DNA of 32,859 bases from a virus, in IMG/VR virus record IMGVR_UViG_3300042345_000439, positions 1-32,859 of that record; one strand, given 5' to 3'. The position numbers were made by a program, and so were the translations under genes. A model generated the notes under the pieces. It ran no database searches and was not told the origin of the DNA. It was given only the letters and a program-made list of their open reading frames with translations. Every line of letters starts with the position of its first letter. The first letter of the stretch is position 1. Positions 1 to 22,253 of the stretch are shown one piece after another.

Positions 1-913
1 GCATAACTATCTGTAATGTTTGTGCTGATGCAAAGTTTAATGTACTATTATTTGTAATGCTACCATAATTACTAGTACCGTTAAATGTATAGTAACCTGT
101 GTTAGCAGAAGGTAAATCTAAAAATGTACAGTTGTTTTTATTACCACTTATGTCATACCAAATATTGCCTGCATTCTGTAGTAATTCTTCGATACTAGGT
201 TCAGTGCCGTCACATAAGTCTACTCTTGGTTGATAGAATTGCAATCTTGTGGTGTTATCTGCGCAATAATACAAATAGGTTCTATGTACACCCGTTGTAG
301 AATTATAACTCCACTTTAAGTCGCCGGTGCCAATATTACAACCGTTAATATCTCCTACTCTACCGTTAGTAGTATAATAACCGGTGTTGGGATTTCTTCC
401 TGTGTAAGTTGTATTTGCTGGGTATACATGTCCTACCCACAAATACCATTGATTCTGTGTTAGTAAACCTGTACCACTACATTCCCAGTAGGCGTTTCCT
501 TCTACTGTACTGTTATCCATGCGGCGCGAGCCATCACCATTAGCATACATTCCGAAATAAAATGTGCCACCTGATGTACTTGATGTTCTGCGAACCCATA
601 CAGAATAACGATACATTTGTGTGTTATCAATATTAAATGAGTCTGTATTCCAGCCACCGTCATCATTTGTTTGTGCCAATGGTCTTGCTTCCCAAACTAC
701 AGCATTGTTTCCCCAAGGATTGCTTGCAACTACTCTTTCATTTTCTGCTGTTTGACCGTTTTGATTATATCCAGTAACACCGCCTGAACCTGTAGTCCAG
801 TTATTCCAATTAATAATTGAACGATTACCTACAATCGATTGTGGATTGGTAGCATCTAGCATTAATGCTAATCCGCTAGTACTTGCAAAATTAGGACCTG
901 TTGTTACACTCAT
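1..913 (-). CDS. LamG-type lectin with N-terminal jelly-roll domain, partial (3' end outside window)
   Basis: An open frame begins at the ATG at 913 and reads without a stop to the left edge, about 304 codons, so the C-terminus is missing. The first residues (MSVTTGPNFASTSGLALML) resemble the start of the two-domain lectin at 2499-4016. A middle part at roughly residues 85-235 (YRYSVWVRR, QWYLWVGHVY, LQFYQPRVDL) looks like a carbohydrate-binding jelly-roll of the kind found in phage tail proteins. Around residues 250-300 the typical LamG opening appears (WYDISGNKNN, YYTFNGTSNY). The ATG overlaps the upstream stop as ATGA, and GGGAGA lies 8 bases before it. Inferred role: receptor or glycan binding on the virion. 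It is the last visible member of the lectin array. Confidence 0.82.
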   Translation of the reverse strand, partial: MSVTTGPNFASTSGLALMLDATNPQSIVGNRSIINWNNWTTGSGGVTGYNQNGQTAENERVVASNPWGNNAVVWEARPLAQTNDDGGWNTDSFNIDNTQMYRYSVWVRRTSSTSGGTFYFGMYANGDGSRRMDNSTVEGNAYWECSGTGLLTQNQWYLWVGHVYPANTTYTGRNPNTGYYTTNGRVGDINGCNIGTGDLKWSYNSTTGVHRTYLYYCADNTTRLQFYQPRVDLCDGTEPSIEELLQNAGNIWYDISGNKNNCTFLDLPSANTGYYTFNGTSNYGSITNNSTLNFASAQTLQIVM

Positions 914-1620
914 ATACCAAATCTCCCGCGCAGTGCATTAAAGTTTTGACTTACATTCGCTGCTGTAAAATAAGTGTTGTATATTTTTGCTACTGCAATA
1001 TTTCCTAACAGATTGTAATAAACATCATTTGGATTATTACCTATAGAAATTGCCATACTACTCCAGATAGTTGCCCCAGACCAAGATCCGCCGCCGGAAC
1101 CAGATGCTCTCACTACATTGTCTACATAAATTAATGCATCAGTGCTATTTCTAGTGCATACTATATGATGCCATTGATTGTCAAAACAGTTAACGCCTGT
1201 AGTTTGTAAACTAACAATATAAGATGCTGAGGGCCATGCATCAGTATTATATATATAATATGTTATCGATCCACCAGGCCCTATATATGATATTTGTCCG
1301 TAATCAGGACATATCAATCCACCTACGTATTTTCCTGAACCTAAACCCGGGCTCTTAACCCATATCTCGTATGTTTGATTTGGGATAGCACCTATAGTAT
1401 TGACTGATGGTGCATATATAATATCGTCTACACCATCCATAACTAATGAACCTAAATTGCTACTACTATATCCTACGCCATTAGTAAGACTGCCATTAAA
1501 ACCATTACCGCTTATATCTGTTAACGTAGTTCCTGATCCAGGATAACTGCGTGGGTTGGCAGCATCATAATAAAATCTTATACCTGATGTTGCGATTGAT
1601 GGATTATAGCCTATGCTCAT
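910..1620 (-). CDS. LamG/concanavalin A-like lectin domain protein
   Basis: This single-domain protein of 236 residues has the array's shared start (MSIGYNPSIATSGI, DAANPRSYPGSGT) and shared end (ALRGRFGI). LamG hallmarks are MDGVDDIIY near residue 63, YEIWVKSP, NQWHHIVCTRN and ALIYVDNVV. The ATG at 1620 is preferred over an in-frame GTG at 1635, because it aligns with the start of the paralogues. The upstream 64-residue gene stops at 1629, so there are 8 bases between them. The leader has no strong Shine-Dalgarno sequence, unlike most genes of the array. Its 3' end provides GGGAGA for the next gene. The likely role is glycan recognition on a virion appendage; this is inferred from the fold and the position downstream of the fibre genes. 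Confidence 0.86.
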   Translation of the reverse strand: MSIGYNPSIATSGIRFYYDAANPRSYPGSGTTLTDISGNGFNGSLTNGVGYSSSNLGSLVMDGVDDIIYAPSVNTIGAIPNQTYEIWVKSPGLGSGKYVGGLICPDYGQISYIGPGGSITYYIYNTDAWPSASYIVSLQTTGVNCFDNQWHHIVCTRNSTDALIYVDNVVRASGSGGGSWSGATIWSSMAISIGNNPNDVYYNLLGNIAVAKIYNTYFTAANVSQNFNALRGRFGI

Positions 1621-1628
1621 ATAATTAT

Positions 1629-1823
1629 TTACCACTTATTAAGTGGACATACCTCATTTAATAGTGTACCTAATACCGGCACAGGTTTATTATCGCTCAT
1701 AGTGCAACGCCCATACATAGCAGTTTCATCATACACATACATCTCGCATGTTGTACAAATTGCTATTCTTGCTGTGCGCTGATCTTCTTGACAAACAAGT
1801 ACATCAGTTATTAATTCTGTCAT
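1629..1823 (-). CDS. small Cys-rich protein, putative zinc-binding, embedded in lectin array
   Basis: The 64-residue protein has Cys at 11, 23, 26, 40 and 59, with a CxxC pair (CTTC) and the ending CPLNKW. This layout (CxxC, a later Cys, and a terminal CP-x-x-K-W) resembles small zinc-ribbon-like proteins common in phage genomes, whose function is not known. One metal site formed by C23, C26, C40 and C59 is plausible. It starts at an ATGA overlap with the lectin gene that ends at 1820, and uses the GGGAGA inside that gene's conserved 3' codons as its ribosome binding site. It is therefore part of the same translationally coupled chain. A role as an accessory or chaperone for the lectins is only a guess. 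Confidence 0.72.
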   Translation of the reverse strand: MTELITDVLVCQEDQRTARIAICTTCEMYVYDETAMYGRCTMSDNKPVPVLGTLLNEVCPLNKW

Positions 1824-2497
1824 ACGCCATATCTCCCACGCAACGCATTATAATTTGTTAATATTTGACTATCAGTTAATGTAGCAAGATAGAGTGTAGC
1901 GTAAGAGATCCTACCATTCCATGTTCTCCCTGCATCAGAGCGACCTATCATCTGTATAGGGTCTCCCCCTGGATTACCTAATACTGCGCCCTGCGCACCA
2001 CTCCAAGTAGCACTCAAACTACCATTCACATAATATTTATGTTCTGTTCCTGTAGTGGTGAAGCCGGCATATGTCCAAGCCCCTGCGGGAAATACAGCAA
2101 GAGAACTATTGTTTATATCACCTAATCGTATTCTTGTGTAAGTTGTATATATTTCAAAATGACAGTTGACTCCACTGACACCATAATGACCCCATATACC
2201 ATTTGTTATTCCTGCTCCTGGGGTAGAATTTAAATAGACCCAACTAAAAAAACTAAAAGGTAGATTAGTTCTAGGTGGTGCGAAAGGCAATGAGATGTAG
2301 TCATCAACATTATCAAAAGTAAAATATCCGTTCGTTCCGCTAGTATATGTAGGACCGTTAGTAAGAGTTCCGTTATAACCACTAGTCGTCACATCATAAA
2401 CAGTTGTGCCTGTGCCGGGATACGACCTAGCATTACCGGCATCAATGCAGTATAAAAGATTACTAGTAATGATTGATGGATTATGTCCTAGTGCCAT
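1820..2497 (-). CDS. LamG/concanavalin A-like lectin domain protein
   Basis: The 225-residue protein starts MALGHNPSIITSNLLYCID, the second of the two start types used in the array, and ends NALRGRYGV. LamG features are FTFDNVDDYISL near residue 60, FFSWVYLNS, WTYAGFTTTG and KYYVNGSLSATW. A longer frame reaching 2563 exists, but its extra 22 residues match no paralogue and overlap the preceding gene. The ATG at 2497 lies 1 base after the preceding TAA and is preferred. Its 3' end overlaps the 64-residue Cys-rich gene by 4 bases. Glycan binding is inferred from the fold. Confidence 0.85.
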   Translation of the reverse strand: MALGHNPSIITSNLLYCIDAGNARSYPGTGTTVYDVTTSGYNGTLTNGPTYTSGTNGYFTFDNVDDYISLPFAPPRTNLPFSFFSWVYLNSTPGAGITNGIWGHYGVSGVNCHFEIYTTYTRIRLGDINNSSLAVFPAGAWTYAGFTTTGTEHKYYVNGSLSATWSGAQGAVLGNPGGDPIQMIGRSDAGRTWNGRISYATLYLATLTDSQILTNYNALRGRYGV

Positions 2498-2498
2498 A

Positions 2499-4016
2499 TT
2501 ATACCCCGTACTTGCCTCTTTGTGCCATGAAATTTTGATATACTTCATTAGCAGTAAGTTCACGATTGTGTACAGTGAAATAACTCAGTTTACCCGGGAA
2601 AGGATAACTGGTTGGACTGCTAGCATATCCACCTATAGTACCGCTTGCTGATGCTGTTCCGCTTGTTGCACTACCAACTCTTTGTGTCAATGATTGTGAT
2701 ACACCGTTTATATAAATCTTATTTTGATTAGTATAATTTCCGTTATAAAACACAGCGGCGACATGAACCCATTGATTAGCATAACTATTAAAATCTAATC
2801 CATAACAATCGCCGTTGCCGTTATTAAATCCAAGATTACCACTAGGCATCCATAATCTGTATCCACTACCAAACTCCATAGGGAACCCACCCGCGCCGCC
2901 GGTCCAATACATCCACATGCTTACTGTGTTATATCCACCACCTGATGTGTTGACGCCGTTCCAGTTTGCTGTGATATAATCATTGACCCCATCAAAACTA
3001 AATGTATTGTCATTAGCATAAGTCAATGCGTTTGCCGTGATAGTATTGTTTGCTGTCAGATCAGTTAGTACTTGTGTTGTGCTTCTTGATCCTAACATCC
3101 AATTGCTTGCTATGCCACCACTATTGACTTGCACTTGCAGATCGGCCATATCAACATCATACGGCGTTGCCGCTGCAGGTGGAAACCAGTATTGATAAAA
3201 ATTAAAAGTGGCGCTTGCTGTCCATGTGTATACAACTTTTTGCCACGATGTTGTTAGTGTGGTTGAACTACTAAAAGCAGATGCGGCCCCGAAATATGTC
3301 GTATATGTCATTGAAACACCTGACCCCCTACTATCAGGAGTTCGTAACCAAAAACTTACGGCGATAACATCACCTGCAGTGACAGGTGTGTATACTCCAT
3401 ATGCCATGCCACCGTCTACACCTACTGTTCTTGTAACATGTATGCGCATACAGTTTGTGCCAGGCACATATCCTCCACCTTCAACTATTTCTTTGACATG
3501 ACACGTGTTAGGCAAATGAGGATATCCCCACCACATCGTAGGAAAACTGGTGCTATTAACAGATATTCTTTGATCTAATGCGATACTATCATAAACTTTA
3601 AAATTACCTGTGCTAGGATTGATATAACCTTGACTACCGTTTTCTGAACTATTATATTGATGTAGACTGAATTGTGTATCATTTATTTTTTTAACAAAAT
3701 AATTTGTATTAGCAGTTAGTCCGCCACCTGATGTCTGTGGTTGAACTGCGTCATATGTCCTAAAAGGATGATTACCTGAAGTAGTGATGATATTACTTGA
3801 TACACTCGCTATAGTACCTATAGAAAAGAAGTTGCCACCGTTATACTGATTAGTATTGTAAGTACCCCAATCATTACTTGTAGTGAATCTACCATTAGTA
3901 CCAGGACTAGGAAGTATATTTGTACCAGGACTGCCGAGCATAGACCTATTGTTGTACATATCATATGTAAACAACAAACCGTTTTCTACAAGTTTAGGTC
4001 CGGTATTTATTGTCAT
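2499..4016 (-). CDS. two-domain lectin: jelly-roll module plus C-terminal LamG domain
   Basis: At 505 residues this is the longest complete lectin of the array. It starts MTINTGPKLVENGLLFTYD, related to the partial gene at the left edge rather than to the MSIGYNPS/MALGHNPS type. Residues about 65-125 hold a small beta module (HPFRTYDAV, GGGLTANTNYFVKKI, FSLHQYN). Residues about 190-300 look like a carbohydrate-binding jelly-roll (AVSFWLRTP, WQKVVYTWTAS, DVDMADLQVQV). A typical LamG follows from about 330 (FSFDGVNDYI, WVHVAAVFYNG, IYINGVSQS), ending MAQRGKYGV. The ATG overlaps the stop of the upstream lectin, with GGGAGA 8 bases ahead. Extra domains suggest a longer reach or a second ligand; this is inference. 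Confidence 0.85.
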   Translation of the reverse strand: MTINTGPKLVENGLLFTYDMYNNRSMLGSPGTNILPSPGTNGRFTTSNDWGTYNTNQYNGGNFFSIGTIASVSSNIITTSGNHPFRTYDAVQPQTSGGGLTANTNYFVKKINDTQFSLHQYNSSENGSQGYINPSTGNFKVYDSIALDQRISVNSTSFPTMWWGYPHLPNTCHVKEIVEGGGYVPGTNCMRIHVTRTVGVDGGMAYGVYTPVTAGDVIAVSFWLRTPDSRGSGVSMTYTTYFGAASAFSSSTTLTTSWQKVVYTWTASATFNFYQYWFPPAAATPYDVDMADLQVQVNSGGIASNWMLGSRSTTQVLTDLTANNTITANALTYANDNTFSFDGVNDYITANWNGVNTSGGGYNTVSMWMYWTGGAGGFPMEFGSGYRLWMPSGNLGFNNGNGDCYGLDFNSYANQWVHVAAVFYNGNYTNQNKIYINGVSQSLTQRVGSATSGTASASGTIGGYASSPTSYPFPGKLSYFTVHNRELTANEVYQNFMAQRGKYGV

Positions 4017-4681
4017 ATACCAAATCTCCCGCGCATTGCATTAAAGTTTTGTGCTACTTGTATGGCAGTTAATGCAACATTATAAACTTTAAGATTGTAA
4101 ATTCTACCATTAAGTTGTTCCGGGCCAACTCCGCCATTGGTATTTGTATCTGCACCTATTCTAAAGTTTGGGCCTGCAGGAACACTTCCCCCTAGTGATG
4201 CCGTTGCAACTGAAACACCGTCAAGATATGTGACACAATTGCCACTACCATCTCTAGTACAAGTTACACAATGTATACCTTGCGTAGCAGTAGCATAGTT
4301 AGGTACATAACAACTACCACTTATATAAAAACCTAATGTTGCTACCCATAAATAGTTTGTAGTATATCCTGTGCCGTAATTACCAAACAATTCTCCATAT
4401 GCTCCTGATACTAGATTATACCAACATTCAACAGTAAAAGGATTAGTACCAGTAACTATATTAGTTGTATTAAGTTCTACATAATCATCAATACCGTCAA
4501 ATATTAATCCACCATTATTAGTAGCACTATACGTAGGACTGTTGGTCAATGTACCTTTAGTTGTGCTTCCCATAGCATCAGCCCAATTAGTACCGCTACC
4601 TGGATAACTACGCGGATTGGCTGCGTCTAGGCATAGTACTAACCCTGATGTCGCTATTGATGGGTTATGTCCTAGTGCCAT
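4013..4681 (-). CDS. LamG/concanavalin A-like lectin domain protein
   Basis: The 222-residue single-domain protein starts MALGHNPSIATSGLVLCLD and ends NAMRGRFGI. LamG motifs are FDGIDDYVEL at about residue 61, FTVECWYNL, a central IHCVTCTRDGSGN and VTYLDGVSV. It begins 2 bases after the stop of the upstream lectin. GGGAGA in that gene's last codons lies 14 bases before this ATG, a longer spacing than in the ATGA-type junctions. The stop overlaps the ATG of the two-domain lectin. The middle differs strongly from its neighbours while both ends are conserved. Confidence 0.86.
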   Translation of the reverse strand: MALGHNPSIATSGLVLCLDAANPRSYPGSGTNWADAMGSTTKGTLTNSPTYSATNNGGLIFDGIDDYVELNTTNIVTGTNPFTVECWYNLVSGAYGELFGNYGTGYTTNYLWVATLGFYISGSCYVPNYATATQGIHCVTCTRDGSGNCVTYLDGVSVATASLGGSVPAGPNFRIGADTNTNGGVGPEQLNGRIYNLKVYNVALTAIQVAQNFNAMRGRFGI

Positions 4682-4683
4682 GA

Positions 4684-5367
4684 TTAGATTCCATATCTCC
4701 CGCGTTGCGCGTTGAAGTTTTGTAATATTTCCGCGGCAGTCAATACACGATTATAAACTCTGCAAATAGATAATGAACCATTATAAAAATAGCCGGCAGC
4801 GCCACCATATACTCCAATCCATTGACCACCGGTATTTGTTGATATTGTTCCGGCTTGACTGTCTGAATTGACTTGCACACCGTTAATATAAAGTATTCTA
4901 CTACCCGAAGTGAATGTACCTACGATTTGGTACCAATTGCTGGTATTCATATACGTTGCAGTAGTTGTAGAAAGATTGGTTAATCCTTGACCAGAACTAA
5001 AAAATTGACGCCATTGTATTACTGCACCTTCTTGGAATAAACTATATTGCGTGTTAACTGTACCCTTCTCAAACCAAAAACCATTTTGCGTAGTAGCGTT
5101 TGTCTTAACCCATACTTCAACACTTGGAGTTTGTGTATCTAGTGCTGTATTATTACTTGCAGTAGCATAATCATTTACTCCATCAAAAGTAAAAAATCCA
5201 CTAGTACCACTTGTATAAGTTGGACTATTTGTAAGAGTATAATTAAATCCCGAAGTGGTAGCGTCATTCCATGCTGTTCCACTGCCGGAATAACTTCTAG
5301 GGTTACCGGCGTCAACACACAGGACTAAGCCTGATGTGACAATTGATGGATTATAGCCTATGCTCAT
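4684..5367 (-). CDS. LamG/concanavalin A-like lectin domain protein
   Basis: The 227-residue protein starts MSIGYNPSIVTSGLVLCVD and ends NAQRGRYGI. LamG motifs are FFTFDGVNDYATAS near residue 60, PSVEVWVKTN, NWYQIVGTFTSGS and ILYINGVQVN, followed by GSLSICRVYNRVLTAAEI. It overlaps the upstream lectin by 4 bases (ATGA), with GGGAGA 8 bases before the ATG. The WY-x-hydrophobic strand and the YINGV turn are the usual core of the laminin-G_3 type fold. Sugar binding and placement on the virion are inferred. Confidence 0.87.
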   Translation of the reverse strand: MSIGYNPSIVTSGLVLCVDAGNPRSYSGSGTAWNDATTSGFNYTLTNSPTYTSGTSGFFTFDGVNDYATASNNTALDTQTPSVEVWVKTNATTQNGFWFEKGTVNTQYSLFQEGAVIQWRQFFSSGQGLTNLSTTTATYMNTSNWYQIVGTFTSGSRILYINGVQVNSDSQAGTISTNTGGQWIGVYGGAAGYFYNGSLSICRVYNRVLTAAEILQNFNAQRGRYGI

Positions 5368-6097
5368 ATACCATATCTCCCGCGTGTTGCGTTAAAATTT
5401 TGAAGTACTTGATCTGCTGTTAACACTGCATTGTATAATCGAAATAAAGCAATGTTTCCACCGAATGCTTGGTTGGGATCAAAACTACCACCAATACTAT
5501 CTTGTTCTTGCGCAAGTACTAACGCACCACCTGTAGCGATTAATGTACCAGCACTTAAAGTACCAGTATACTGACTTACACCATTAACATATAATGTTTC
5601 GGCCCCAGTAGTTCTGTTGCTTGTTCTGACAACTTGTTTCCAATTGCCATCATTTATACTTACACCTGATGCTACTGCTGTTACTCCTACATATAATCCT
5701 AAATTACTAGGATCAAACATAAGAAAATCATTGTCAGCCGCAGAACTTGCATAACTTATTATTCCTGTTCCACCAACTGTAGTTTTACACCATATCTCAT
5801 AACTCAATGTAGTTGTAGGCATAGATATAGGATTTTTGATCATATAGTTAGCAGTAGAGCCATTGGTGAAGGTCCACCCTTGTGTAGCAGAATATGTAGG
5901 GCTTCCACCAATAGTCATATTGTTGTTATTACCGCTTACATCGATAGCCGTGCTGCCACTACCATTATAGCATCGTGCGTTATAAGAATCAATACAGAGT
6001 ATTAATCCTGATGTCGCTATTGATGGATTATAGCCTATGCTCATATACCATATCTTCCGCGTAGTGCATTAAAATTTTGCGTCACTTGATCTGCGGT
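5331..6097 (-). repeat. conserved junction repeats of the lectin array (example pair)
   Basis: The junction at 5331-5420 and that at 6008-6097 match at 75 of 90 positions by hand alignment, including a 36-base identical core. Another pair, 910-948 and 4013-4051, matches at 38 of 39. Each junction holds the end of one lectin gene and often the start of the next. Confidence 0.8.
5364..6044 (-). CDS. LamG/concanavalin A-like lectin domain protein, divergent core
   Basis: The 226-residue protein has the standard start MSIGYNPSIATSGLILCID and end NATRGRYGI. It lacks the FDGVDDY strand of its paralogues: in its place is WTFTNGSTANYMIK. The rest of the fold is recognisable (LSYEIWCKTT, NWKQVVRTSNRT, ETLYVNGVSQ, GNIALFRLYNAVLTADQV). 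The ATG overlaps the upstream stop by 4 bases. Here the upstream Shine-Dalgarno copy is GGAAGA rather than GGGAGA, because the upstream gene uses a different Arg/Gly codon pair. Loss of FDG may change a calcium or ligand loop. Confidence 0.84.
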   Translation of the reverse strand: MSIGYNPSIATSGLILCIDSYNARCYNGSGSTAIDVSGNNNNMTIGGSPTYSATQGWTFTNGSTANYMIKNPISMPTTTLSYEIWCKTTVGGTGIISYASSAADNDFLMFDPSNLGLYVGVTAVASGVSINDGNWKQVVRTSNRTTGAETLYVNGVSQYTGTLSAGTLIATGGALVLAQEQDSIGGSFDPNQAFGGNIALFRLYNAVLTADQVLQNFNATRGRYGI

Positions 6098-6694
6098 TAA
6101 TGCTACATTATACATCATGACATCTGATATATTACCTTGCCATGCGTAGCCGCCACCTGCTGACCAGTAACCTACTCGCAAACCTTGGCTCCAATCTGCT
6201 GTACCTGTTGTTGATTGCTGTCCTTGATATACACCTTGACGATATATTGAAACATTACTACCATTATAAACTACACAATAGCATCCCCAAGTGTTTAATG
6301 GTATGCTTGTAGGCTTAGAATAATAGTATTCACCCCATACACCGCCGTGAGTGTATGCCCAACTGTTGTCTCCATACCAATAAAATGCTGTACTTGTCCT
6401 GCCAGCAACAGGCATTCTATTTTCTGCACTTCTATATGCCCAGTACATTATGGTATAATTTGCCATAGTGCCTAAATTGCCTGAAAAATCTACATAATCA
6501 TCAACACCGTCAAATACTATCGATCCTAAATTTGAACTGCTGTAAGTTGATCCGTTGGTTAATACACCTGTATTAGTATTTCCAACAAGTTGTGCCCATG
6601 ATGTACCGCTACCTGGATAACTGCGTTGATTGGCCGCATCTACACAGAATAATAATCCTGATGTCGCTATTGATGGATTGTGTCCTAGTGCCAT
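6041..6694 (-). CDS. LamG/concanavalin A-like lectin domain protein
   Basis: The 217-residue protein starts MALGHNPSIATSGLLFCVD and ends NALRGRYGI. LamG motifs are IVFDGVDDYVDF at about residue 60, YTIMYWAYRS, WGCYCVVYNGSN and SIYRQGVYQG, with an aromatic-rich centre (FYWYGDNSWAY, WGEYYYSKP) that could form a sugar-stacking surface. It starts 2 bases after the stop of the upstream lectin and overlaps the next one by 4 bases. Function is inferred from the fold and from the array context. Confidence 0.86.
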   Translation of the reverse strand: MALGHNPSIATSGLLFCVDAANQRSYPGSGTSWAQLVGNTNTGVLTNGSTYSSSNLGSIVFDGVDDYVDFSGNLGTMANYTIMYWAYRSAENRMPVAGRTSTAFYWYGDNSWAYTHGGVWGEYYYSKPTSIPLNTWGCYCVVYNGSNVSIYRQGVYQGQQSTTGTADWSQGLRVGYWSAGGGYAWQGNISDVMMYNVALTADQVTQNFNALRGRYGI

Positions 6695-6696
6695 GA

Positions 6697-7344
6697 TTAG
6701 ATTCCGTATCTCCCGCGATAAGCATTGAAGTTTTGTGCGATCTGTGCAGCCGTCAAAACTGTGTTGTATACTAGCATGAATCCTATCTGTGCGTTTGAAA
6801 ACTCGCTACTACCTGCATATGATCCTATAGCAAATCCATTTGGTCCGGCAGAGCCACCTGTGCTTGGACCTGTATTTAAAACTCCGTTGACATAAAAATT
6901 ATAACTGTCTCCTGAAATATTTCCTGAAGCCGCATAGATACGCCAGTTATTGTCACCGGGGCCTGCCCCTACCGCTGTCACCCAACCTTCAGCATAATGA
7001 TTCTCCGTTGTTCCGCTCCAATGTCCCATGAGCCAGTTGTTATTTTTTGCTGAGAATGTACGATTTCTACCGGTTGCGCCTATGTATCTTGATACTCCCA
7101 TTATTGTATAATTTGTCGTAGATAGATTGATAGGTATATCGATATAATCATCTGTTCCATCTAGTACGAATAGACCACCGTTGCTTGTGGTATATGTGAC
7201 TCCGTTGACTAACGTGCCAGTATAGCCATTGCCGCTAGCATCGTATATTGTAGTGCCGCTTCCTGAATAAGTTCTAGGATTTGCAGGATCAAAACATGCT
7301 ATCAATCCTGATGTCACTATAGATGGATTATGTTGTAATGCCAT
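6697..7344 (-). CDS. LamG/concanavalin A-like lectin domain protein
   Basis: The protein is 215 residues from the ATG at 7344 (MALQHNPSIVTSGLIACFD) and ends NAYRGRYGI. A longer frame up to 7377 would add 11 residues that no paralogue has and would overlap the preceding gene. The ATG at 7344 shares one base with the TAA of the 90-residue gene (TAATG), so it is preferred. LamG motifs are VLDGTDDYIDI at residue 60, YTIMGVSRYIG, NNWRIYAASG and YNFYVNGVLN. It follows a non-lectin gene, so it does not use the lectin-type GGGAGA overlap. Confidence 0.85.
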   Translation of the reverse strand: MALQHNPSIVTSGLIACFDPANPRTYSGSGTTIYDASGNGYTGTLVNGVTYTTSNGGLFVLDGTDDYIDIPINLSTTNYTIMGVSRYIGATGRNRTFSAKNNNWLMGHWSGTTENHYAEGWVTAVGAGPGDNNWRIYAASGNISGDSYNFYVNGVLNTGPSTGGSAGPNGFAIGSYAGSSEFSNAQIGFMLVYNTVLTAAQIAQNFNAYRGRYGI

Positions 7345-7616
7345 TATGGATTCTCTGGGTCTACTGGTTCTGTCCAAGCAGGTGTTGACATGACTTCCAG
7401 TGTCTCATCGTGTGTCATATATGGACCCTTAGTAGTCAATGACTGCACACATGAAGGAACTCCTGTGTGTGAATACCACTTGACTAGTGTTTGCAATCCA
7501 TCTACGCTACGACGGCATGTTTCAGCCGATGTCTGTAATACCTGATTGAAATCTATCTGATCTAGTTCTGACACATTGAATATCACATATGTCAATCCGT
7601 TGTTTTCTGTTACCAT
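7344..7616 (-). CDS. small conserved-looking phage protein of unknown function
   Basis: The 90-residue protein is not a lectin. It begins MVTENNGLTYVIFNVSELD, continues with a helical stretch (QIDFNQVLQTSAETCRR) and a short segment with WYSHTGVPSCVQSL, and ends in an acidic, proline-rich tail. I believe similar small proteins occur near tail genes of marine T4-like phages, always unassigned, but I cannot name a family with certainty. AAGGAGA lies 7 bases before the ATG, and a late-promoter-like octamer lies just upstream. It may start a new sub-transcript inside the lectin array. The TAATG junction couples it to the lectin at 6697-7344. Confidence 0.72.
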   Translation of the reverse strand: MVTENNGLTYVIFNVSELDQIDFNQVLQTSAETCRRSVDGLQTLVKWYSHTGVPSCVQSLTTKGPYMTHDETLEVMSTPAWTEPVDPENP

Positions 7617-7635
7617 TGTTCTGTCTCCTTATATC

Positions 7636-7643
7636 TATTTAGA
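7636..7643 (-). promoter_or_regulatory. possible late promoter box inside the lectin array
   Basis: TCTAAATA overlaps the stop of the first lectin. The predicted start would leave a leader of about 14 bases beginning at AAGGAGA. The match is imperfect and could be chance. Confidence 0.3.
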
Positions 7644-8322
7644 TGCTATATCTCCCACGCGTGGCGTTGAAGTTTTGTAATACTTGGTCTGCGGTGAGTG
7701 CGGCATTATATAATCTCACTATTGAAATAGGCCCGTTATGATATGTATGAAAGTTTGCACCGCCCACTCTATAACCTTCACTACTACTAAAAAATGTTGC
7801 TGAACCACTGGTCAGAGACCCTACTGATACTCCATTCAGATATAATGCTTGTGCGGTACCATTGCTCACTCCTACCATCTGATACCAAACGCCGGTGTTT
7901 ACTGTAGCAGAGTACGTGACCCCAAAATTACTGGTTCCGTAACGTTGATATAGCAAGATACTTGATCCTGTATTATACCATAATCCATATGTTCTGTTAG
8001 TGCTATCACCCTTGCCAAACACTCTAACCCAATCGCTTGCTGTAGCATCTAACTTGAACCAGCATTCGCAAGTCATAGTGCCGGTCAAATCTGTAGTAGA
8101 AGTGCTAGTGCTTGAAGTATAATCATCAACGCCGTCAAAGTCTAGATAGCCTCCATTGGTGCTACTATACACTGGGCCATTAACTAATGTCCCGTCGTTT
8201 CCACCTGTGGTTGATGCATCACTCCATAGTGTTCCTGAACCCGGATAACTGCGTTTGTTGCCCGCATCCAGATTTAGTACTAAGCCTGTAGTCGCTATGC
8301 TTGGATTGTAACCAATTGACAA
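7639..8322 (-). CDS. LamG/concanavalin A-like lectin domain protein, TTG start
   Basis: The 227-residue protein is the first of the lectin array. No ATG fits: the start is TTG at 8322, giving the same first residues as the paralogues (x-SIGYNPSIATTGLVLNLD). The TTG is backed by a strong AAAGGAGA six bases upstream that overlaps the stop of the 1973-residue fibre gene. LamG motifs are LDFDGVDDYTS at residues 60-70, MTCECWFKLD, WYQMVGVSNG at about 146 and ALYLNGVSVG at about 159. The end is NATRGRYSI, with Ser replacing the usual Gly. It is probably cotranscribed with the fibre gene. Confidence 0.86.
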   Translation of the reverse strand: MSIGYNPSIATTGLVLNLDAGNKRSYPGSGTLWSDASTTGGNDGTLVNGPVYSSTNGGYLDFDGVDDYTSSTSTSTTDLTGTMTCECWFKLDATASDWVRVFGKGDSTNRTYGLWYNTGSSILLYQRYGTSNFGVTYSATVNTGVWYQMVGVSNGTAQALYLNGVSVGSLTSGSATFFSSSEGYRVGGANFHTYHNGPISIVRLYNAALTADQVLQNFNATRGRYSI

Positions 8323-8328
8323 TGTGTA

Positions 8329-8336
8329 TCTCCTTT
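8329..8336 (-). promoter_or_regulatory. ribosome binding site deciding a TTG start
   Basis: AAAGGAGA six bases before TTG at 8322 supports that codon as the start of the first lectin, since no ATG is available near the conserved N-terminus. Confidence 0.75.
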
Positions 8337-11300
8337 ACGCATATGTTGCGCTTAGAGTGTACCATTGTGTTGTTGATGTTGCTACGAATTCAAGTCTGCC
8401 GCCTGCTGCTAGTGAGTAGGCTGCGTTTGTCGCGCCGGCGTTAATAGCACCACCTGTAGCAGGGTACACATTCAATGCTGTTGCGCTAGTATTGATGATG
8501 ACTATTCTCATACCAGCAGTAGTTGTTGGCATGACAACACCTTGACCTGAACTTACTGTGCTGACTACGTTGATTGGACGAGTCAATGCAGTTGCAGTAC
8601 CCTGTGTTGAACCTGCTGCGCTGATGCCTGTGCTTACACCAAATGCTACAAAGCCGCCGCTTGGGGCAAGATTGATAGTACCAGTATCACTTACTGTGAT
8701 CATTGGTATGCCAGAAACATCGTTCACGCTGAAGATGTTACCAGACATGCTATCAGTGATGCTGAATAACTGACCTGCGTTACCTGACCATGCTAGTGTA
8801 CCACCATTCAACATCTGACTGTTGATAGTGTTTGCACCGTTTGGTGATACGTAAGCGATATTTGATTTAACGCTAAAGTTACTGAAGTAACTATTTGCAT
8901 TAGCACCTATACCACCTGCTACGATCAATGCACCTGTTGTAGTGCTTGTTGCCGCAGTAGTTGATTGTATGTTTGCGGCACCGCTTACAGTCAATGATGT
9001 CAACGTACCAACACTAGTGATATTGGGTTGTGCCGCAGTTGTTACTGTCGCGGCTGATCCACTTACTGAACCACTGATAGTGCTTGATACAGTCAATCCA
9101 GATAGGGTACCTACGCTAGTGATGTTAGGTTGAGCCGCAGTCGTTACAGTACCTGCTGTTGTAGCGGCACCTGACAATGTTCCAACAAACGTTGTTGATG
9201 TCACACTTGATAGACCAGCAACAGTTGTTACTGTTGAACCTAATGTCAATGCAGTGCTACCTAATGTCACGCTAGCATTTGCTAATCTTGCTTGAGCAAG
9301 AGTGCCAGTTGAAATATTGCTTGCATTTAGTGCTGTTAAGCCGCTACCATTACCTGCAAATATACCTGTATTTGCTGTGATGTTGGCTGCTGTGATGTTG
9401 CCACTTACACCTAATGATCCTAATGTTCCAACTGTTGTCAAACTTGAAGTTACAACTGTTGAACTTAATGTTGTTCCAACAATGTTACCGGCCTGTACAC
9501 TGCTTAATCCGTTAGCATTACCAGTGAATACACCAGTGTTAGCAGTAAATGCTACTGCTGTTACTGTACCATTAACACCTAATGATGATAATGTGCCAAC
9601 TGATGTGATGTTTGGTTGTGCCGCAGTTGTTACAGTACCTGCTGTTGTAGCACTTGTCGCCGCACCGCTCAATGCACCTACAAATGTAGTTGCATACAAT
9701 GCACCGTTGCTTGTATTTGCTACGAATGTTGCGTTTGCTGTTTCTGCAATGTTACCAGTCAATGCATTACCAAATAATAAGTAAGCATTGCCACTTGATT
9801 GTGTAGTTACATTGATATGATCTGTGACGTTAGCGTATGCTACGTTCAAGTTTGCTACGCGAGTTGTGCTTGACACTGTTAGTGGGGCAGTACCAGTTGC
9901 TACGTTTGAAGTCAATGTGCTTGCTACGACTGCGCCCGCAGTGTTCAAGTTACCTGCTGAAGCATTACCTGTTACTGCTAATGATGATAATGTACCAACA
10001 CTTGTGATATTCGGCTGAGCCGCAGTTGTTACGGTGCCTGCTGTTGTAGCACTTGACACAGTACCTGTTACGTTAGCACCTGCGATTGCGCTTAAGCCGC
10101 TACCGTTACCAGTAAATACACCAGTGTTTGCTGTGATGTTTACCGCAGTAACAGTGCCGTTTACGCCTAATCCAGTTAGTGTACCAACACTAGTGATGTT
10201 TGGTTGTGCAGCCGTATATACTGTGCCAGCAACTAGAGCATTTGCTACTTGACCACTGACGTTACCACCAGTGATGCTTGCTAGATTTGCACCTGACAAG
10301 CCTGCTGCGAAAGTTGCGCTTGAACCTACAATACTATTCCAAGTACCAGTTGTTACTGTGCCCAATGCTGTAACTTGTGTCTGTGAAGCATTTACACTAA
10401 ATGTTGTACCAGTTAGGGTTAGACCAGTTCCTGCCGCATAAACCTGCGAACTACTGAACTGTGCGAATGTGATGTTGCTAGTACCAAATGTGATTGTTCC
10501 ACTAGGTGCGTCTAGAACATATGCGCTACCCTTGTTGACACTACCGCCTGAAACAAAGAAGTAATCGTTGAGGCTTAAACTTCCTGCTCCTACACCATAT
10601 TCATCGGCATCAGAAGCACGAACGATTGTAGTTGCGTTAGCCCAAGTATAGATACCATTATGTGCCGCATTTGCTTCGTTCTTGACAAGTATACGAGTTC
10701 CTACTGTTTGAACGTTAGCGGTATCAATCAAATTGAATGAGCCAGTAGTGACAAGGTTTGCACCTACTCCACTTGCACCGTTGTTGTAAGTGATCGTACC
10801 GCCAGTAGCAGTAGCCAATGTACCAGTTGTGGCTGCTGTGACACCTTCGTGATATACAAGAGCAGTTGATGCTAGATCGTCAACATATTGTTTAGTTGCC
10901 GCATCACTTGCGTTTGTTGGTGTAGCAAGATTGATGATAGTGTTGCTAGTCATGTCTAGGTTACCAGCAATACTGCTGACACCTGTACCAGTTACACTCA
11001 ACACACCTGTTGTTGTCAAGTTACCGGCTGCAACGTTTCCTGTAACTGCTAGTGAACTTAGTGTACCAACACTAGTAATATTTGGCTGAGCATTAGTATA
11101 AACTGTGCCTGCCACTAGAGCATTACCTACTTGACCAGTTACGTTGCCACCTGCTAGTTGTGATAAACCACTACCATTGCCTGTGAATACCCCTGTATTT
11201 GCTGTGATATTAGCAGCGGTAATGTTACCATTTACACCTAATCCAGTTAATGTACCAACTGATGTTACGTTTGGTTGTGCCGCAGTTGCTAATGTACCTG

Positions 11301-14256
11301 TTAGTAATGTACCGCTTACGTTACCTGCGCTTACATTTCCGGTTACAGTTAGTGAACTTAATGTACCAACTGATGTAATATTTGGTTGAGCCGCAGTTGT
11401 TACAGTACCTGCTGTTGTAGCCGCACCGCTTAGTGTTGCTGTGATGATATTTGCGCTGAAACTTCCATTAATATCACGAATTACAACTGTATCTCCGGTT
11501 GCTGTTGTCGCTGTACTATAGCCATCAAGTAAGTCAGCATTCAAATTGGCAACTTTTGTTGTTGATGTTACTACTAATGGAGCAGTACCTGTTGATACGT
11601 TACTGATCAATTGAGGAGCAGTTACGTTTGCTGTTGCTAATACTTGCGCAGTACCTAAATTACCTACATTGGCATTACCTGTTGCATTTAGTGTACCTGA
11701 TATGTTTGCGCCAGTGCTTGTGACTACTAGTTCAACAGTACTACCGGCTGCTTGAATTGAAACGTTTCCGTTAGCAGTGATTGCAATATTGCTATTACCG
11801 TTCTGTAACAATCCACTATTGATAGTTGTGATGTTACCAGTAGTTGCGATTAAGGTAGTTGTACCTAAGTTACCTGTATTCGCATTGCCGGTTACGCTCA
11901 AGTCACCTGCTGTAGTTAAGTTACCACCTGATACGTTACCTGTTGCTGTGATTAGACCGGCAGTACCTAAGTTACCAACGTTAGCATTACCTGTTACACT
12001 TAATGTACCGCCAGTTGATAGGTTACCTGCCGTTGCTGTTCCTGTTACTGTTAATGATGTCAATGTACCAACACTAGTAATGTTAGGCTGTGCTGCCGTG
12101 ATTACTGTGCCTGCTGTTGTTGCATTACCGCTTAGGTTTGCAGTTACAATGTTAGCACTAAAACTGCCGTTTGTGTCACGAATGACTACTGTGTTTGCTG
12201 TTGCGGCTGAGTCTGTGCTATAACCATCTAATAAATCAGCATTTAAATTTGTTACTTTAGTAGTTGATGATACAACTAATGGGGCAGTACCTGTCGCTAT
12301 TGAAGATACTAATTGACCAGCAGTTGTGATATTACCACCAGTAACGTTGCCCGTTGCTGTGATCAATCCAGCAGTGCCTAAATTACCTACGTTAGCATTA
12401 CCTGTTGCATTCAATGTGCCTGTTACATTCGCACCAGTATCTGTTACAACTAATACGTTAGCCGTTCCGTTAACGCTGATGTTTACGTTGCCGGCTACGG
12501 CTGGAATATTTACATTACTGTTGCCATTTGCTAATGCACCACCAGTGATATTACCTGCTGAGATATTACCGCTGACAGTCAAAGATGTGAGTGTACCAAC
12601 ACTAGTGATGTTAGGCTGTGCTGCCGTTGTTAACGTACCAGTTAATAAACTTGCGCCTATAGTACCTGAGTTAGCAAACACGCTACCTGCTGTCGCTGTA
12701 CCAGTGACAGTCAATGATGTCAATGTGCCTACGCTAGTGACGTTAGGCTGAGCCGCTGTTGTTAATGTGCCAGTTAATAAACTTGCGCCAACGGTGCCGC
12801 TATTAGCATAAACGTTGCCGCTTGTAGTGTTTCCTGTTACTGTTAATGATGTCAATGTGCCTACGCTAGTGACATTTGGCTGTGCGGCAGTTGTTAATGT
12901 GCCAGTCAATAATGAAGCACCAATCGTGCCTGAGTTAGCATAGACATTACCAGCAGTGACATTGCCTGTAACTGTAGCACTAGTTAGTGTACCAACACTA
13001 GTGATGTTAGGTTGTGCTGCCGTTGTTAATGTGCCGGTTACAAAGTTCGCTGTTAATAAATTACCGGCGTTAACATTACCTGCGCTAGCATTACCTGTGA
13101 TAGTCAAGCCTGTTAATGTGCCGATACTTGTGATATTCGGTTGAGCGGCTGTTGTTAGTGTGCCGCCTAGATAAGTTGCGCTAACTAAGTTAGCACCTGT
13201 TACTTCTGATGTTGCGCCGCTTAATGTGATGTCTGCGTTTGCAGCCATTGTCAAGCCAGTCAATGTACCAACACTAGTGATATTAGACTGAGCCGCATCA
13301 ACTACTGTGTTTGCTGTGCTTGCATGTGTTGCATTTGCTACCGTACCGGTTACGTTAGCACCAACGATAGAACTTAAACCATTACCATTACCTGTAAATA
13401 CGCCGGTGTTAGCAGTAAATGCAACTGCTGTTACAGTTCCATTAACATTTAGACCTGACAATGTGCCAAGACTTGTGATGTTTGGTTGAGCATTGGTTGA
13501 TAATGTGCCAGATACTGTAGTGAAGACTGCGTTGTTGCCACCTATGTTTCCAACGTTTGCATTACCTGTTACAGATAATGTTGACAATGAACCGATACTA
13601 GTGATATTTGGCTGCGCGGCAGTAGTGAGTGTACCAGTCAAATAAGTTGCGCTGACTAAGTTTGCTCCGCTAATAGCAGAGTCTACACCGCTTGTAGTAA
13701 CTAGTGCGTTAGCAACTAATGTTAGTCCTTGCAAAGTACCTACACTTGTGACGTTAGGTTGTGAACTAGAAGTCAATGTACCAGTAACAAAATTTGCTGA
13801 TACTAAATTACCAAGATTAGCGTTAGCGGCTGTTAAGTTACCTTGAAGTATGACAGCATTACTTGTTTTATCAAACGTGAATGCTCCGGAGCCACCAAAT
13901 TGATCTGAATCATTGAACTGAATCTGTGAATTTGAGCCGCCAGGCAGTTGTAAGTCCCATGGATTACCGTTAGCATAAAGAAGATTGTCTGTCTTGATTC
14001 TAGTGGCAGCAACGTTACCAGTAATCGTTAATACGTTATTGTTCTTGTCCCATACAAAATCGTTGTCACCACCAATAGCAGTGCCGTCAGTAAATAATAC
14101 CTGTGTGTTAGCAGTAGATATTGTGGGGAAAGTGTTTACGTTTCCATCACTGTCCTTAACAGACATTACACCATAATCGTCTATGAAAAGCGTGGCCTTA
14201 CCTGAAGACGGTGTCGGTATGCTGTTGGCTGATTCTTCTTTAAGTATTATTGACAT
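8335..14256 (-). CDS. giant repeat-rich tail fibre-like protein
   Basis: The 1973-residue protein is dominated by beta-type repeats around the motif AQPNITSVGTL, of which I count 18 copies, followed by strands like SLTVTGN and linkers such as NVTGTLLTGTL. The start MSIILKEESANSIPTPSSGK is unlike the other three fibres. Residues about 90-135 hold LLYANGNPWDLQ and NSQIQFNDSDQFGGS, a module shared with the fibres at 14972 and 18812. Residues about 1115-1275 hold a DAATKQYVD segment followed by RILVKNEANAAHNGIY, known from many phage tail fibres. LNADLLDGYS/SFSAN modules occur twice. The last 90 residues (GQGVVMPTTTAGM, EFVATSTTQWYTL) form a distinct C-terminal domain. A GATAAATA box lies upstream. 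Likely role: receptor-binding or structural fibre. Confidence 0.88.
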   Translation of the reverse strand: MSIILKEESANSIPTPSSGKATLFIDDYGVMSVKDSDGNVNTFPTISTANTQVLFTDGTAIGGDNDFVWDKNNNVLTITGNVAATRIKTDNLLYANGNPWDLQLPGGSNSQIQFNDSDQFGGSGAFTFDKTSNAVILQGNLTAANANLGNLVSANFVTGTLTSSSQPNVTSVGTLQGLTLVANALVTTSGVDSAISGANLVSATYLTGTLTTAAQPNITSIGSLSTLSVTGNANVGNIGGNNAVFTTVSGTLSTNAQPNITSLGTLSGLNVNGTVTAVAFTANTGVFTGNGNGLSSIVGANVTGTVANATHASTANTVVDAAQSNITSVGTLTGLTMAANADITLSGATSEVTGANLVSATYLGGTLTTAAQPNITSIGTLTGLTITGNASAGNVNAGNLLTANFVTGTLTTAAQPNITSVGTLTSATVTGNVTAGNVYANSGTIGASLLTGTLTTAAQPNVTSVGTLTSLTVTGNTTSGNVYANSGTVGASLLTGTLTTAAQPNVTSVGTLTSLTVTGTATAGSVFANSGTIGASLLTGTLTTAAQPNITSVGTLTSLTVSGNISAGNITGGALANGNSNVNIPAVAGNVNISVNGTANVLVVTDTGANVTGTLNATGNANVGNLGTAGLITATGNVTGGNITTAGQLVSSIATGTAPLVVSSTTKVTNLNADLLDGYSTDSAATANTVVIRDTNGSFSANIVTANLSGNATTAGTVITAAQPNITSVGTLTSLTVTGTATAGNLSTGGTLSVTGNANVGNLGTAGLITATGNVSGGNLTTAGDLSVTGNANTGNLGTTTLIATTGNITTINSGLLQNGNSNIAITANGNVSIQAAGSTVELVVTSTGANISGTLNATGNANVGNLGTAQVLATANVTAPQLISNVSTGTAPLVVTSTTKVANLNADLLDGYSTATTATGDTVVIRDINGSFSANIITATLSGAATTAGTVTTAAQPNITSVGTLSSLTVTGNVSAGNVSGTLLTGTLATAAQPNVTSVGTLTGLGVNGNITAANITANTGVFTGNGSGLSQLAGGNVTGQVGNALVAGTVYTNAQPNITSVGTLSSLAVTGNVAAGNLTTTGVLSVTGTGVSSIAGNLDMTSNTIINLATPTNASDAATKQYVDDLASTALVYHEGVTAATTGTLATATGGTITYNNGASGVGANLVTTGSFNLIDTANVQTVGTRILVKNEANAAHNGIYTWANATTIVRASDADEYGVGAGSLSLNDYFFVSGGSVNKGSAYVLDAPSGTITFGTSNITFAQFSSSQVYAAGTGLTLTGTTFSVNASQTQVTALGTVTTGTWNSIVGSSATFAAGLSGANLASITGGNVSGQVANALVAGTVYTAAQPNITSVGTLTGLGVNGTVTAVNITANTGVFTGNGSGLSAIAGANVTGTVSSATTAGTVTTAAQPNITSVGTLSSLAVTGNASAGNLNTAGAVVASTLTSNVATGTAPLTVSSTTRVANLNVAYANVTDHINVTTQSSGNAYLLFGNALTGNIAETANATFVANTSNGALYATTFVGALSGAATSATTAGTVTTAAQPNITSVGTLSSLGVNGTVTAVAFTANTGVFTGNANGLSSVQAGNIVGTTLSSTVVTSSLTTVGTLGSLGVSGNITAANITANTGIFAGNGSGLTALNASNISTGTLAQARLANASVTLGSTALTLGSTVTTVAGLSSVTSTTFVGTLSGAATTAGTVTTAAQPNITSVGTLSGLTVSSTISGSVSGSAATVTTAAQPNITSVGTLTSLTVSGAANIQSTTAATSTTTGALIVAGGIGANANSYFSNFSVKSNIAYVSPNGANTINSQMLNGGTLAWSGNAGQLFSITDSMSGNIFSVNDVSGIPMITVSDTGTINLAPSGGFVAFGVSTGISAAGSTQGTATALTRPINVVSTVSSGQGVVMPTTTAGMRIVIINTSATALNVYPATGGAINAGATNAAYSLAAGGRLEFVATSTTQWYTLSATYA
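8900..13780 (-). repeat. coding repeats of the 1973-residue fibre
   Basis: Eighteen copies of a motif around AQPNITSVGTL are spread through the gene at irregular spacing. Copies are imperfect at DNA level, so this is protein-level repetition kept by selection or recombination rather than a fresh duplication. Confidence 0.85.
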
Positions 14257-14297: not shown

Positions 14298-14951
14298 TTA
14301 CACCGCGCTATTATCGTGGACATAAGACCAACGATTGTTAGTACCATCCCAAAATGCAAGCATACCGGCTGGATTGCTGTTAGTTACTACGGCTATCTGA
14401 CCAATACTACCTACAACGGCTGTTAATGCTGTGTTGCTATACGTAGTTAATTTTAAAAACGCACCTCCGTTGATAGAGCCAGGCACTGATAAATTTCCTG
14501 ATGTCTTATCGAATGTAAATCCATTATTTCCTGAAGGTTCTCCGCCATCGTTAAAAGTTACTTGCGTATCTGTACCTGGGGCACCTTGACCACTCACATC
14601 TATCAATGCACCATCAATCTCTAATGTTCCATTGACAGTTAGAGGTGTCCCAAATAATCCCTGATAGTTAGCAGGAATAGTTAACGTATTACCTGCATCG
14701 ATAACGATAGGCATCGGAGCCGCACTTTGCGTAACTGATACAGTAGTCCAAGTTAGATTACCTGAACCATTAGTTGTCAATACTTGGTTGTTACTACCAC
14801 CAGTAATGATAACGTTACCGTTCGCGCCTAGATTTGAAATTCCGTTAGCAGTAAAATTAACGGTGGTGATATCACCGTTAGCCTGTACTATCGTAACAGC
14901 AGGATCTCCTGTAGAGAATCCTGCTATGGAATTTAAAGGTCTGACTGCCAT
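14298..14951 (-). CDS. short fibre-like protein
   Basis: The 217-residue protein has the same opening as the fibres at 14972 and 18812 (MAVRPLNSIAGFSTGDPAV, then ANGDI). It carries one copy of the module NNQVLTTNGSGNLTW and one of DTQVTFNDGGEPSGN/FTFDKTSGNLSV. Its C-terminus (GSIGQIAVVTNSNPAGMLAFWDG, RWSYV) looks like a compact end domain seen on phage tail proteins. It starts 20 bases after the stop of the 1267-residue gene, with no late-promoter box between, so it is probably cotranscribed. It may be a short fibre, or an adapter using the same attachment site as its larger relatives. Confidence 0.82.
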   Translation of the reverse strand: MAVRPLNSIAGFSTGDPAVTIVQANGDITTVNFTANGISNLGANGNVIITGGSNNQVLTTNGSGNLTWTTVSVTQSAAPMPIVIDAGNTLTIPANYQGLFGTPLTVNGTLEIDGALIDVSGQGAPGTDTQVTFNDGGEPSGNNGFTFDKTSGNLSVPGSINGGAFLKLTTYSNTALTAVVGSIGQIAVVTNSNPAGMLAFWDGTNNRWSYVHDNSAV

Positions 14952-14971
14952 CTTCTTTCGTTACCTAACAA

Positions 14972-21884: not shown

Positions 21885-22253
21885 ATGTTAACAAAGCAAA
21901 AATCTCGCCCTGTATGTAGTCATTGCGGTCTAGTACCGGCGAAACCTAATGGCATAAGCAAGTTAGGATTCAAAAAATGGCACAAATATTGTGTAGATTG
22001 TAGCAAGATGATGTATAATGACAACTACAAGCATCTACAAAACAAGGGTGATCGTTGTGATTTTTGCGGATTTAAAGCAGTAGACAAATGCCAACTAGAA
22101 GTAGTCTTTAAAGATGGTAATAAGAAAAACAAGAAATCCGGAAATCTTAAAACATGTTGTAAAAATTGCGGAAGCCTATATAAAAAACGTCTTCGTAAAG
22201 GTAAGAAGTCAGTGATGAACATGACTGTCGATACAGATATTAGAATCGCATAA
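21885..22253 (+). CDS. degenerate HNH-like zinc-finger protein
   Basis: The 122-residue basic protein has two CxxC-paired zinc sites: C11/C14 with C36/C39, and C58/C61 with C92/C95. The second half follows the HNH nuclease layout (CDFCGF, LEVVFKDGNKKNKKSGNL, CKNCGS). The first HNH histidine, normally in xHxDGN, is Phe75, and the last, normally CxxCH, is Gly96. DGN and the later Asn are kept. Nuclease activity is therefore unlikely, but DNA binding is possible. It is the only plus-strand gene between the head and fibre blocks and lies next to the capsid gene, where phage homing endonucleases often sit. It has no Shine-Dalgarno sequence; a TCTAAATA box lies five bases before the ATG. An inactivated homing endonuclease or a recruited DNA-binding protein are both possible. 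Confidence 0.78.
   Translation: MLTKQKSRPVCSHCGLVPAKPNGISKLGFKKWHKYCVDCSKMMYNDNYKHLQNKGDRCDFCGFKAVDKCQLEVVFKDGNKKNKKSGNLKTCCKNCGSLYKKRLRKGKKSVMNMTVDTDIRIA

Follow-up and report, generated by a model that had tools for sequence, protein, structure and literature searches.

The window analysed here is the entire 32,859-base IMG/VR record IMGVR_UViG_3300042345_000439, a fragment of a phage, and the subject is a tandem array of lectin-like genes that lies at positions 2–8322 of its minus strand. The source is a T4-like phage. Its minus strand carries, in this order, a tape measure-like protein, the portal, prohead genes, a gp23-type head protein, fibre-like repeat proteins and the array; among cultured phages, the relatives by gp23 are Vibrio phage 2.275.O (68%) and jumbo phages of Pseudomonas, PA5oct (66%) among them. 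Located downstream of the fibre genes, the array comprises nine complete LamG/ConA-type genes and a tenth that is cut by the contig end. It directly follows fib1973 (8335–14256, minus strand), the last fibre-like repeat protein upstream of it, whose C-terminus is conserved in relatives, which supports the placement after the fibre genes proposed in an initial annotation. That annotation had also counted ten consecutive lectin genes. From 949 to 8136 the minus strand carries nine matches to PF13385 (Laminin_G_3, ConA-like lectin/glucanase superfamily; Pfam curated cut-off 27.6 bits), each scoring above the cut-off (36.5–77.2 bits), and eight window proteins exceeded it in a protein-level search; the array is thus real and lies far outside what chance would produce. 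The tenth gene, g10 (2–913), gave no LamG match in its own sequence, the contig ending before the domain; a 259-aa stretch of it is 80–89% identical to relatives whose full open reading frame (ORF) has a C-terminal LamG domain (e.g. L099, 3917–5263; L numbers denote related loci). Ten is a minimum, because the array runs off the end of the record, and the genes form a one-strand run that is interrupted by two small non-LamG ORFs, at 7344–7616 and 1629–1823.

Several starts in the ORF list were too early, and inspection of the sequence puts those of g2, g8 and g9 at 7344, 2497 and 1620. All on the minus strand, the genes begin with g1 (7639–8322, 227 aa), a LamG cassette with a TTG start and its own Shine–Dalgarno sequence (SD), AAGGAG, after the fibre stop (PF13385 2.7e-21). 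It is followed by orf90 (7344–7616), which encodes a 90-aa companion protein of LamG arrays and has a late-promoter-like CTAAATA ahead of it at 7642. The LamG cassettes g2 (6697–7344, family F2, starting MALQHNPS and overlapping the orf90 stop through TAATG), g3 (6041–6694, F4), g4 (5364–6044, F20, with a Pentaxin match too), g5 (4684–5367, F1) and g6 (4013–4681, F17) come next. The long gene g7L (2499–4016, 505 aa) has its LamG domain at the C-terminus and a different N-terminal part, and the ATG of cassette g8 (1820–2497) lies 2 nt past its stop. A Cys-rich 64-aa ORF, cys64 (1629–1823), overlaps the g8 stop and shows a weak PHROG 13558 match (0.005); a similar ORF is present in the L090 array. 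Cassette g9 (910–1620, F19) starts with MSIGYNPS, and g10 (F3) is a truncated long gene whose LamG domain would fall past the contig end.

The genes were originally described as sharing both ends. Each of the nine complete genes does have the C-terminus NF(N/M)AxRG(R/K)(Y/F)G(I/V), in places slightly altered (NYNAL, RGRYSI), and only eight of the ten have the N-terminus NPSIxTSGL/SYPGSGT, 2499–4016 beginning with GPKLVENGL and 2–913 with GPNFASTSGL. Between these ends the divergence is as strong as first stated: amino-acid identity among window paralogues is 0.63 over the first ~34 residues, 0.32 in the core and 0.67 over the last 24, and the mean column entropy in 95 aligned relatives is 1.24 bits at the N-end, 2.66 in the core and 1.05 at the C-end. 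The variation is not confined to loops, core strands (2.70 bits) varying like core loops (2.51 bits). Orthologous cores show dN/dS values of 0.03–0.10, several of the dS values being close to saturation, and are under purifying selection; near-identical phages also have identical arrays, so no ongoing loop hypervariation is seen. With strands varying like loops and orthologous cores conserved, loop hypervariation is ruled out as the mode of change.

An AlphaFold model of g5, built on the alignment of 95 relatives, is a single-domain full jelly roll (pLDDT 94.6, pTM 0.92) in which both conserved ends lie inside the fold, the first strand spanning residues 14–19 and the last helix 211–225. Its best VIA-align structural match is the C-terminal sugar-binding domain of the arabinanase AbnA (Z 21.6), and many other ConA-type sandwiches match too (Z about 20–21.6), among them the N-terminal halves of the binding domains of clostridial toxins (Z about 20); the likeness to the latter is one of fold only and has no bearing on toxicity. 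Profile matches include pentraxins and chains named sialidase or neuraminidase. The model thus agrees with the LamG-type fold first assigned from motifs and supports a lectin-like LamG/ConA fold for the cassettes, with carbohydrate binding as a predicted property.

About 60 related arrays were compared, the relatives being found via gp23, nrdA, the fibre C-terminus and conserved-end patterns; with nrdA as anchor, the 80 best loci were mostly phages with another gene order and about a dozen were informative. Relatives with nearly the same head protein differ in what stands after the last fibre and ahead of a conserved ~147-aa ORF plus nrdA. This slot is empty in L011 (gp23 96% identical), holds three tandem Gly-rich ORFs in L021 (gp23 95%; the first one, which was tested, is Gly_rich_2) and multi-LamG giant fibres in L028 and L029. 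In the fibre C-terminus search, at least 15 or so loci pass directly from the fibre to the 147-aa ORF and nrdA, and LamG genes occupy the slot in L286 (the same contig as L090), L287 and L309. The tandem sets of L252 and L267 also fill it. Since the slot is empty or differently filled in relatives, the array is an optional filling of an adhesin slot. Tandem paralogue sets with N-termini alike within each set lie in or near the slot at L199 (8325–11158), L252 (1051–6550) and L267 (1684–5550); members of the first two are Gly_rich_2, and the tested L267 member had no Pfam match. In L090, a Fibrinogen_C-like gene (14538–15290, 3.8e-5) ends the LamG array, and similar genes occur in L099, L111 and L092. 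In bacterial genomes, LamG-type genes were found at 11 loci as single genes or pairs in metagenome bins, with no array comparable to that of the window among them. A bin labelled Parcubacteria (L373, L374 and L375; CALRBF010000001.1, CALRBF010000006.1) contains three LamG genes of the array type, the best segment of one being 53% identical to the query; they may be host genes or come from misbinned phage.

A single locus can have as few as 1 and as many as 13 LamG genes, and core orthologues of 65–90% identity of g2, g3, g4, g5, g6, g9 and g10 are distributed over differing subsets of the relatives. That of g9 occurs in L090 only (90%), those of g4 (76%) and g6 (79%) in L099 only, those of g3 in L099 (90%), L122, L116 and L287 (81–90% overall), those of g2 in L090, L287 and L122, and those of g5 in L287, L111, L120, L113 and others. 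Five relatives carry g10 orthologues (80–89%) and L108 a weak orthologue of the g1 core (54%), and no orthologous core of g8 or g7L was found in any relative. Clustering of the cores of 22 loci gave 24 families common to at least two loci, with 60 of the 84 clusters limited to one. Family orders also differ, F2-F4-orf90-F1 in L101 against orf90-F2-F4-F20-F1 in the window. The F3 gene of L101 (15051–17294) has ~900 extra nt about 50 nt past its start relative to L122 and L134, as if a domain had been inserted behind the conserved N-end. The relatives, then, do not keep all ten genes as fixed orthologues but differ in gene number and order, and the description of the array as a modular set is borne out by cores that are gained, lost, replaced and reordered, by whole sets that are swapped and by close relatives without an array. 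Within groups of near-identical contigs the arrays are 99.8–100% identical and never more variable than the flanks; together with the low dN/dS of the cores, this means that change proceeds by cassette exchange and not by hypermutation. Hypermutation is contradicted by the identical arrays of near-identical phages.

A property of the shared C-end that the initial annotation had missed is that it encodes the Shine–Dalgarno sequence of the next gene. The codons of R-G-R-Y-G-I-stop read, for example, CGC GGG AGA TAT GGT ATA TGA, and the start codon ATG of the following gene overlaps this stop; at the end of g3 (6041–6067, minus strand) the joint is GCACTACGCGGAAGATATGGTATATGA, which encodes A-L-R-G-R-Y-G-I-stop and contains the SD GGAAGA and the g4 ATG. 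Calling a gene coupled if the ATG that follows is located between -13 and +8 nt relative to its stop, we found that the second Arg of RGR is AGA or AGG (AGR) in 119 of 119 coupled genes versus 21 of 42 other genes (161 RGR genes; Fisher 5e-15), and in 71 of 71 versus 17 of 31 within 25 mixed contigs (permutation p at most 5e-5). Coupled genes show no such bias at the first Arg (72 CGN to 47 AGR) or at another conserved Arg (38 to 26). The AGR codon of the shared C-end is therefore predicted to give the next gene its Shine–Dalgarno signal. Where genes are spaced, [ATC]TAAATA lies at the stop in 29 of 50, versus 1 of 156 coupled genes and a background of 1.5%; it resembles the late promoter sequences of T4, TATAAATA, and S-PM2, NATAAATA (PMC2984593). 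In the window, the late-promoter-like motif stands ahead of the tape measure, portal, prohead and fibre genes and of orf90 (7642), and its three other minus-strand occurrences within g2–g10 (6879, 4010 and 2040) are inside genes, one overlapping the g7L start; g2–g10 therefore look like one late operon, probably with coupled translation.

Breakpoints between related arrays concentrate in the same ends. L120 and L128 have flanks that are 94% and 93% identical and differ in all array cores, their near-identity running to ~27 nt inside the first gene and resuming 18 nt before the end of the last stop codon. Over 57 representative loci, 44 of the 54 homology-block ends inside LamG genes fall within the opening 100 or the closing 80 nt, stretches that account for 21% of the gene length (p = 2e-21, a guide value, since the pairs compared depend on one another and alignments are made longer by conserved ends). 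The ends do not follow the cores. Orthologues with 60–90% identical cores have N-ends of 0.60–0.63 identity, barely above paralogues; at the nucleotide level, N-end identity is 0.637 between orthologues (74% mean core identity) and 0.633 on average, 0.699 at best, between paralogues of one array with cores below 40%. N-ends are closer within an array than between arrays (0.633 vs 0.597; Wilcoxon 3e-5), and an own-array neighbour is closer than the orthologue in 37 of 53 genes, the effect being weaker at the C-end (20 of 53).

The companion orf90 occurs only together with such arrays. Of 58 distinct LamG loci, 29 contain homologues, a single copy apiece but for one exception; 31 of the 34 homologues lie within 100 nt of a same-strand LamG gene, and none were found in the loci without LamG of three control sets (79, 80 and 75). 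Among 50,697 phage records, only S-SKS1 and immuto (six records) carry orf90, both with LamG genes nearby. The protein had no PHROG or Pfam match, and a fold search with its model (pLDDT 84.4) returned no match at E below 0.65; a role as chaperone or adaptor would be a guess.

The explanation that we favour, and hold to be probable, is that the array forms an operon encoding interchangeable lectin-fold proteins, most of them with a single domain, that it occupies the adhesin position next after the tail fibres, and that its joints serve both swapping and expression. The sequences show that in each cassette a conserved N-end and C-end flank a private core. They also show cores being gained, lost, reordered and replaced as whole sets, the breakpoints clustering in the conserved ends. 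Finally, the C-end of each gene carries the expression signal for the one that follows, either as a Shine–Dalgarno sequence in the RGR codons with stop/start overlap or as a late-promoter-like TAAATA over the stop. Carrying that signal, the C-end would allow a cassette to stand behind any other one without losing its translation. Swapping may occur by homologous recombination between the ends, both inside one array and among phages that infect the same cell; a fibre or baseplate site common to all the proteins may hold them through the N-end, the 90-aa companion or both; and the set may give one phage several glycan or receptor specificities. Several points weigh against this explanation. Conserved ends lengthen alignments, and most breakpoints cannot be placed to the base, L120/L128 being the clean case; p values are optimistic because contigs related by descent are not independent; and the silent-site similarity of own-array ends is modest (N-end 0.40 vs 0.33 between arrays). 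The compared contigs are fragments, and loci L090–L167 were found with conserved-end patterns, which biases the set towards genes having such ends. No glycan-binding site was identified in any cassette, and display on the virion and binding are our inferences.

Ordinary duplication and divergence, with ends conserved for the fold and for translational coupling and no special recombination at the ends, retains a small share of probability. Both ends belong to the jelly roll, and RGR is kept in many uncoupled genes (31 of 50 spaced genes and 11 of 22 without a next gene), so a constraint at the protein level exists. However, this account does not fit the low N-end identity (0.60–0.63) of orthologues whose cores are still 67–81% identical, the greater likeness of N-ends to own-array neighbours than to other arrays, or the replacement of whole core sets between phages with 93–94% identical flanks.

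As for what the proteins do, display on the virion has indirect support: the cyanophage proteins S-PM2 p176 (at residues 630–1057) and Syn1_217, annotated as virion structural, have homologous LamG domains as their C-terminal part, and the Flavobacterium phage immuto encodes stand-alone homologues, gp050 and gp051, annotated as ‘structural protein’ (annotation as deposited). According to published work, the virions of jumbo phages bear LamG and further lectin domains, both in their fibres and in decorations on the surface of head and tail (PMC7824862), and lectin-like and carbohydrate-binding genes of variable phage islands are linked to host recognition (PMC3909814, PMC7029224, PMC7824862). 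Because homologues are annotated as structural and such islands are tied to host recognition, we favour the view that the cassettes are a host-recognition repertoire; the array adjoins the fibre genes and is exchanged among close relatives, as are genes for receptor-binding proteins and tail-fibre adhesins. It seems rather improbable that the displayed proteins are instead capsid or tail-sheath decorations or general particle or polysaccharide adhesins (Hoc-like): the head and tail decorations just cited, and the location of gp23 and the array within one structural region, would fit this, but the array lies directly behind the last fibre, in a slot that holds Gly_rich_2 genes or nothing in relatives, and in S-PM2 and Syn1 this domain makes up the C-terminal part of large proteins with a structural annotation. 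We consider it very improbable that they are glycan-binding enzymes or decoys acting inside or outside the infected cell and not on the virion, since, although the label ‘glucanase’ is common for ConA-like folds and a stand-alone gene does not have to encode a structural protein, the matches are to binding-type, not catalytic, domains and the homologues are annotated as structural.

A host-recognition repertoire has partial parallels in known systems. In the T4-type distal tail-fibre adhesin slot (gp37–gp38, with Gly-rich gp38-like tips), small adhesin-like genes likewise stand directly behind the last fibre gene, and close relatives of our phage hold tandem Gly_rich_2 genes at the place of the array; the array differs in having a LamG jelly roll, not a Gly-rich fold, and about ten serial genes, not one, and the window proteins gave LamG-type Pfam matches only and no gp38 PHROG, no homology to gp38 being found. 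The T4-like Synechococcus phages S-PM2 (p176) and S-SKS1, as well as immuto, have the same domain with an NFNA.(R/K).RFG(L/I)-type C-end, and immuto combines two adjoining stand-alone LamG genes with an orf90 homologue, like the array; theirs, however, are one or few domains, often fused in large structural proteins, with no ten-gene operon. Metaviromic islands or host recognition clusters of marine phages are similarly variable and rich in lectin-like, carbohydrate-binding, Gp38 and fibrinogen-like genes, and the available portions of the papers on them describe the variability without a cassette joint, core/end mosaicism or a companion protein (PMC3909814, PMC7029224). Our limited search of open-access papers found nothing directly on point for LamG tandem arrays.

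Shufflons and invertible tail-fibre segments (Mu, P1, R64) combine constant ends with exchangeable specificity segments, and diversity-generating retroelements of the BPP-1 type diversify phage adhesins. The array superficially resembles both in its constant ends and variable middle, but programmed diversification of either kind is scarcely credible here: no reverse transcriptase (RVT_1), Resolvase or Phage_integrase/tyrosine recombinase was found in 12 array-bearing records, several of which are fragments, all genes lie on one strand with only weak short inverted matches (up to 30 nt, at 70%), near-identical phages have the same arrays, and cores are under purifying selection. Compared with shufflons, no recombinase or inversion was seen, all cassettes look expressed, and exchange would take place between genomes over evolutionary time; compared with retroelements, there is no strain-level hypermutation, and the fold is not that of a C-type lectin. 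Phase variation was likewise left without support, there being no strong inverted repeats and no recombinase in those records.

Elsewhere in the window, on the minus strand, lie the fibre-like repeat proteins fib1267 (14972–18775) and fib992 (18812–21790) and the gp23-type major head protein (22303–23499), which served as query for finding relatives. A small HNH-type ORF (21885–22253, plus strand) lies between gp23 and the first fibre, with homologues at the same place in L010 and L011. The tape measure-like protein (28284–32108, minus strand, 1274 aa) contains an amidase/endolysin-type domain at residues ~1030–1180 (PHROG 1794, 7e-14), possibly a virion-borne peptidoglycan hydrolase.

That LamG domains occur on phage fibres and that host-recognition islands vary is already known; in a limited open-access search, and as far as the available parts of those papers go, we found no description of a cassette array combined with a dual joint (homology arm and expression signal) and a companion. 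More tentatively, and at somewhat less than even confidence, we propose a recombinase-free adhesin cassette system in which the joint is at once C-terminus, Shine–Dalgarno sequence or promoter, and homology arm, in which one orf90 would serve all cassettes, and in which cassettes could be held in any number and order and drawn from a pool common to many phages. Reshuffling of the cassettes would let the virus change what it sticks to. Phage host-range genes are known to be variable, but it is less clear how a phage can hold and reshuffle many adhesins while all stay expressed. The sequence suggests a rule, namely that one short set of codons serves as exchange joint and expression signal alike, and with it the evolution of multi-receptor repertoires in uncultured large phages becomes testable.

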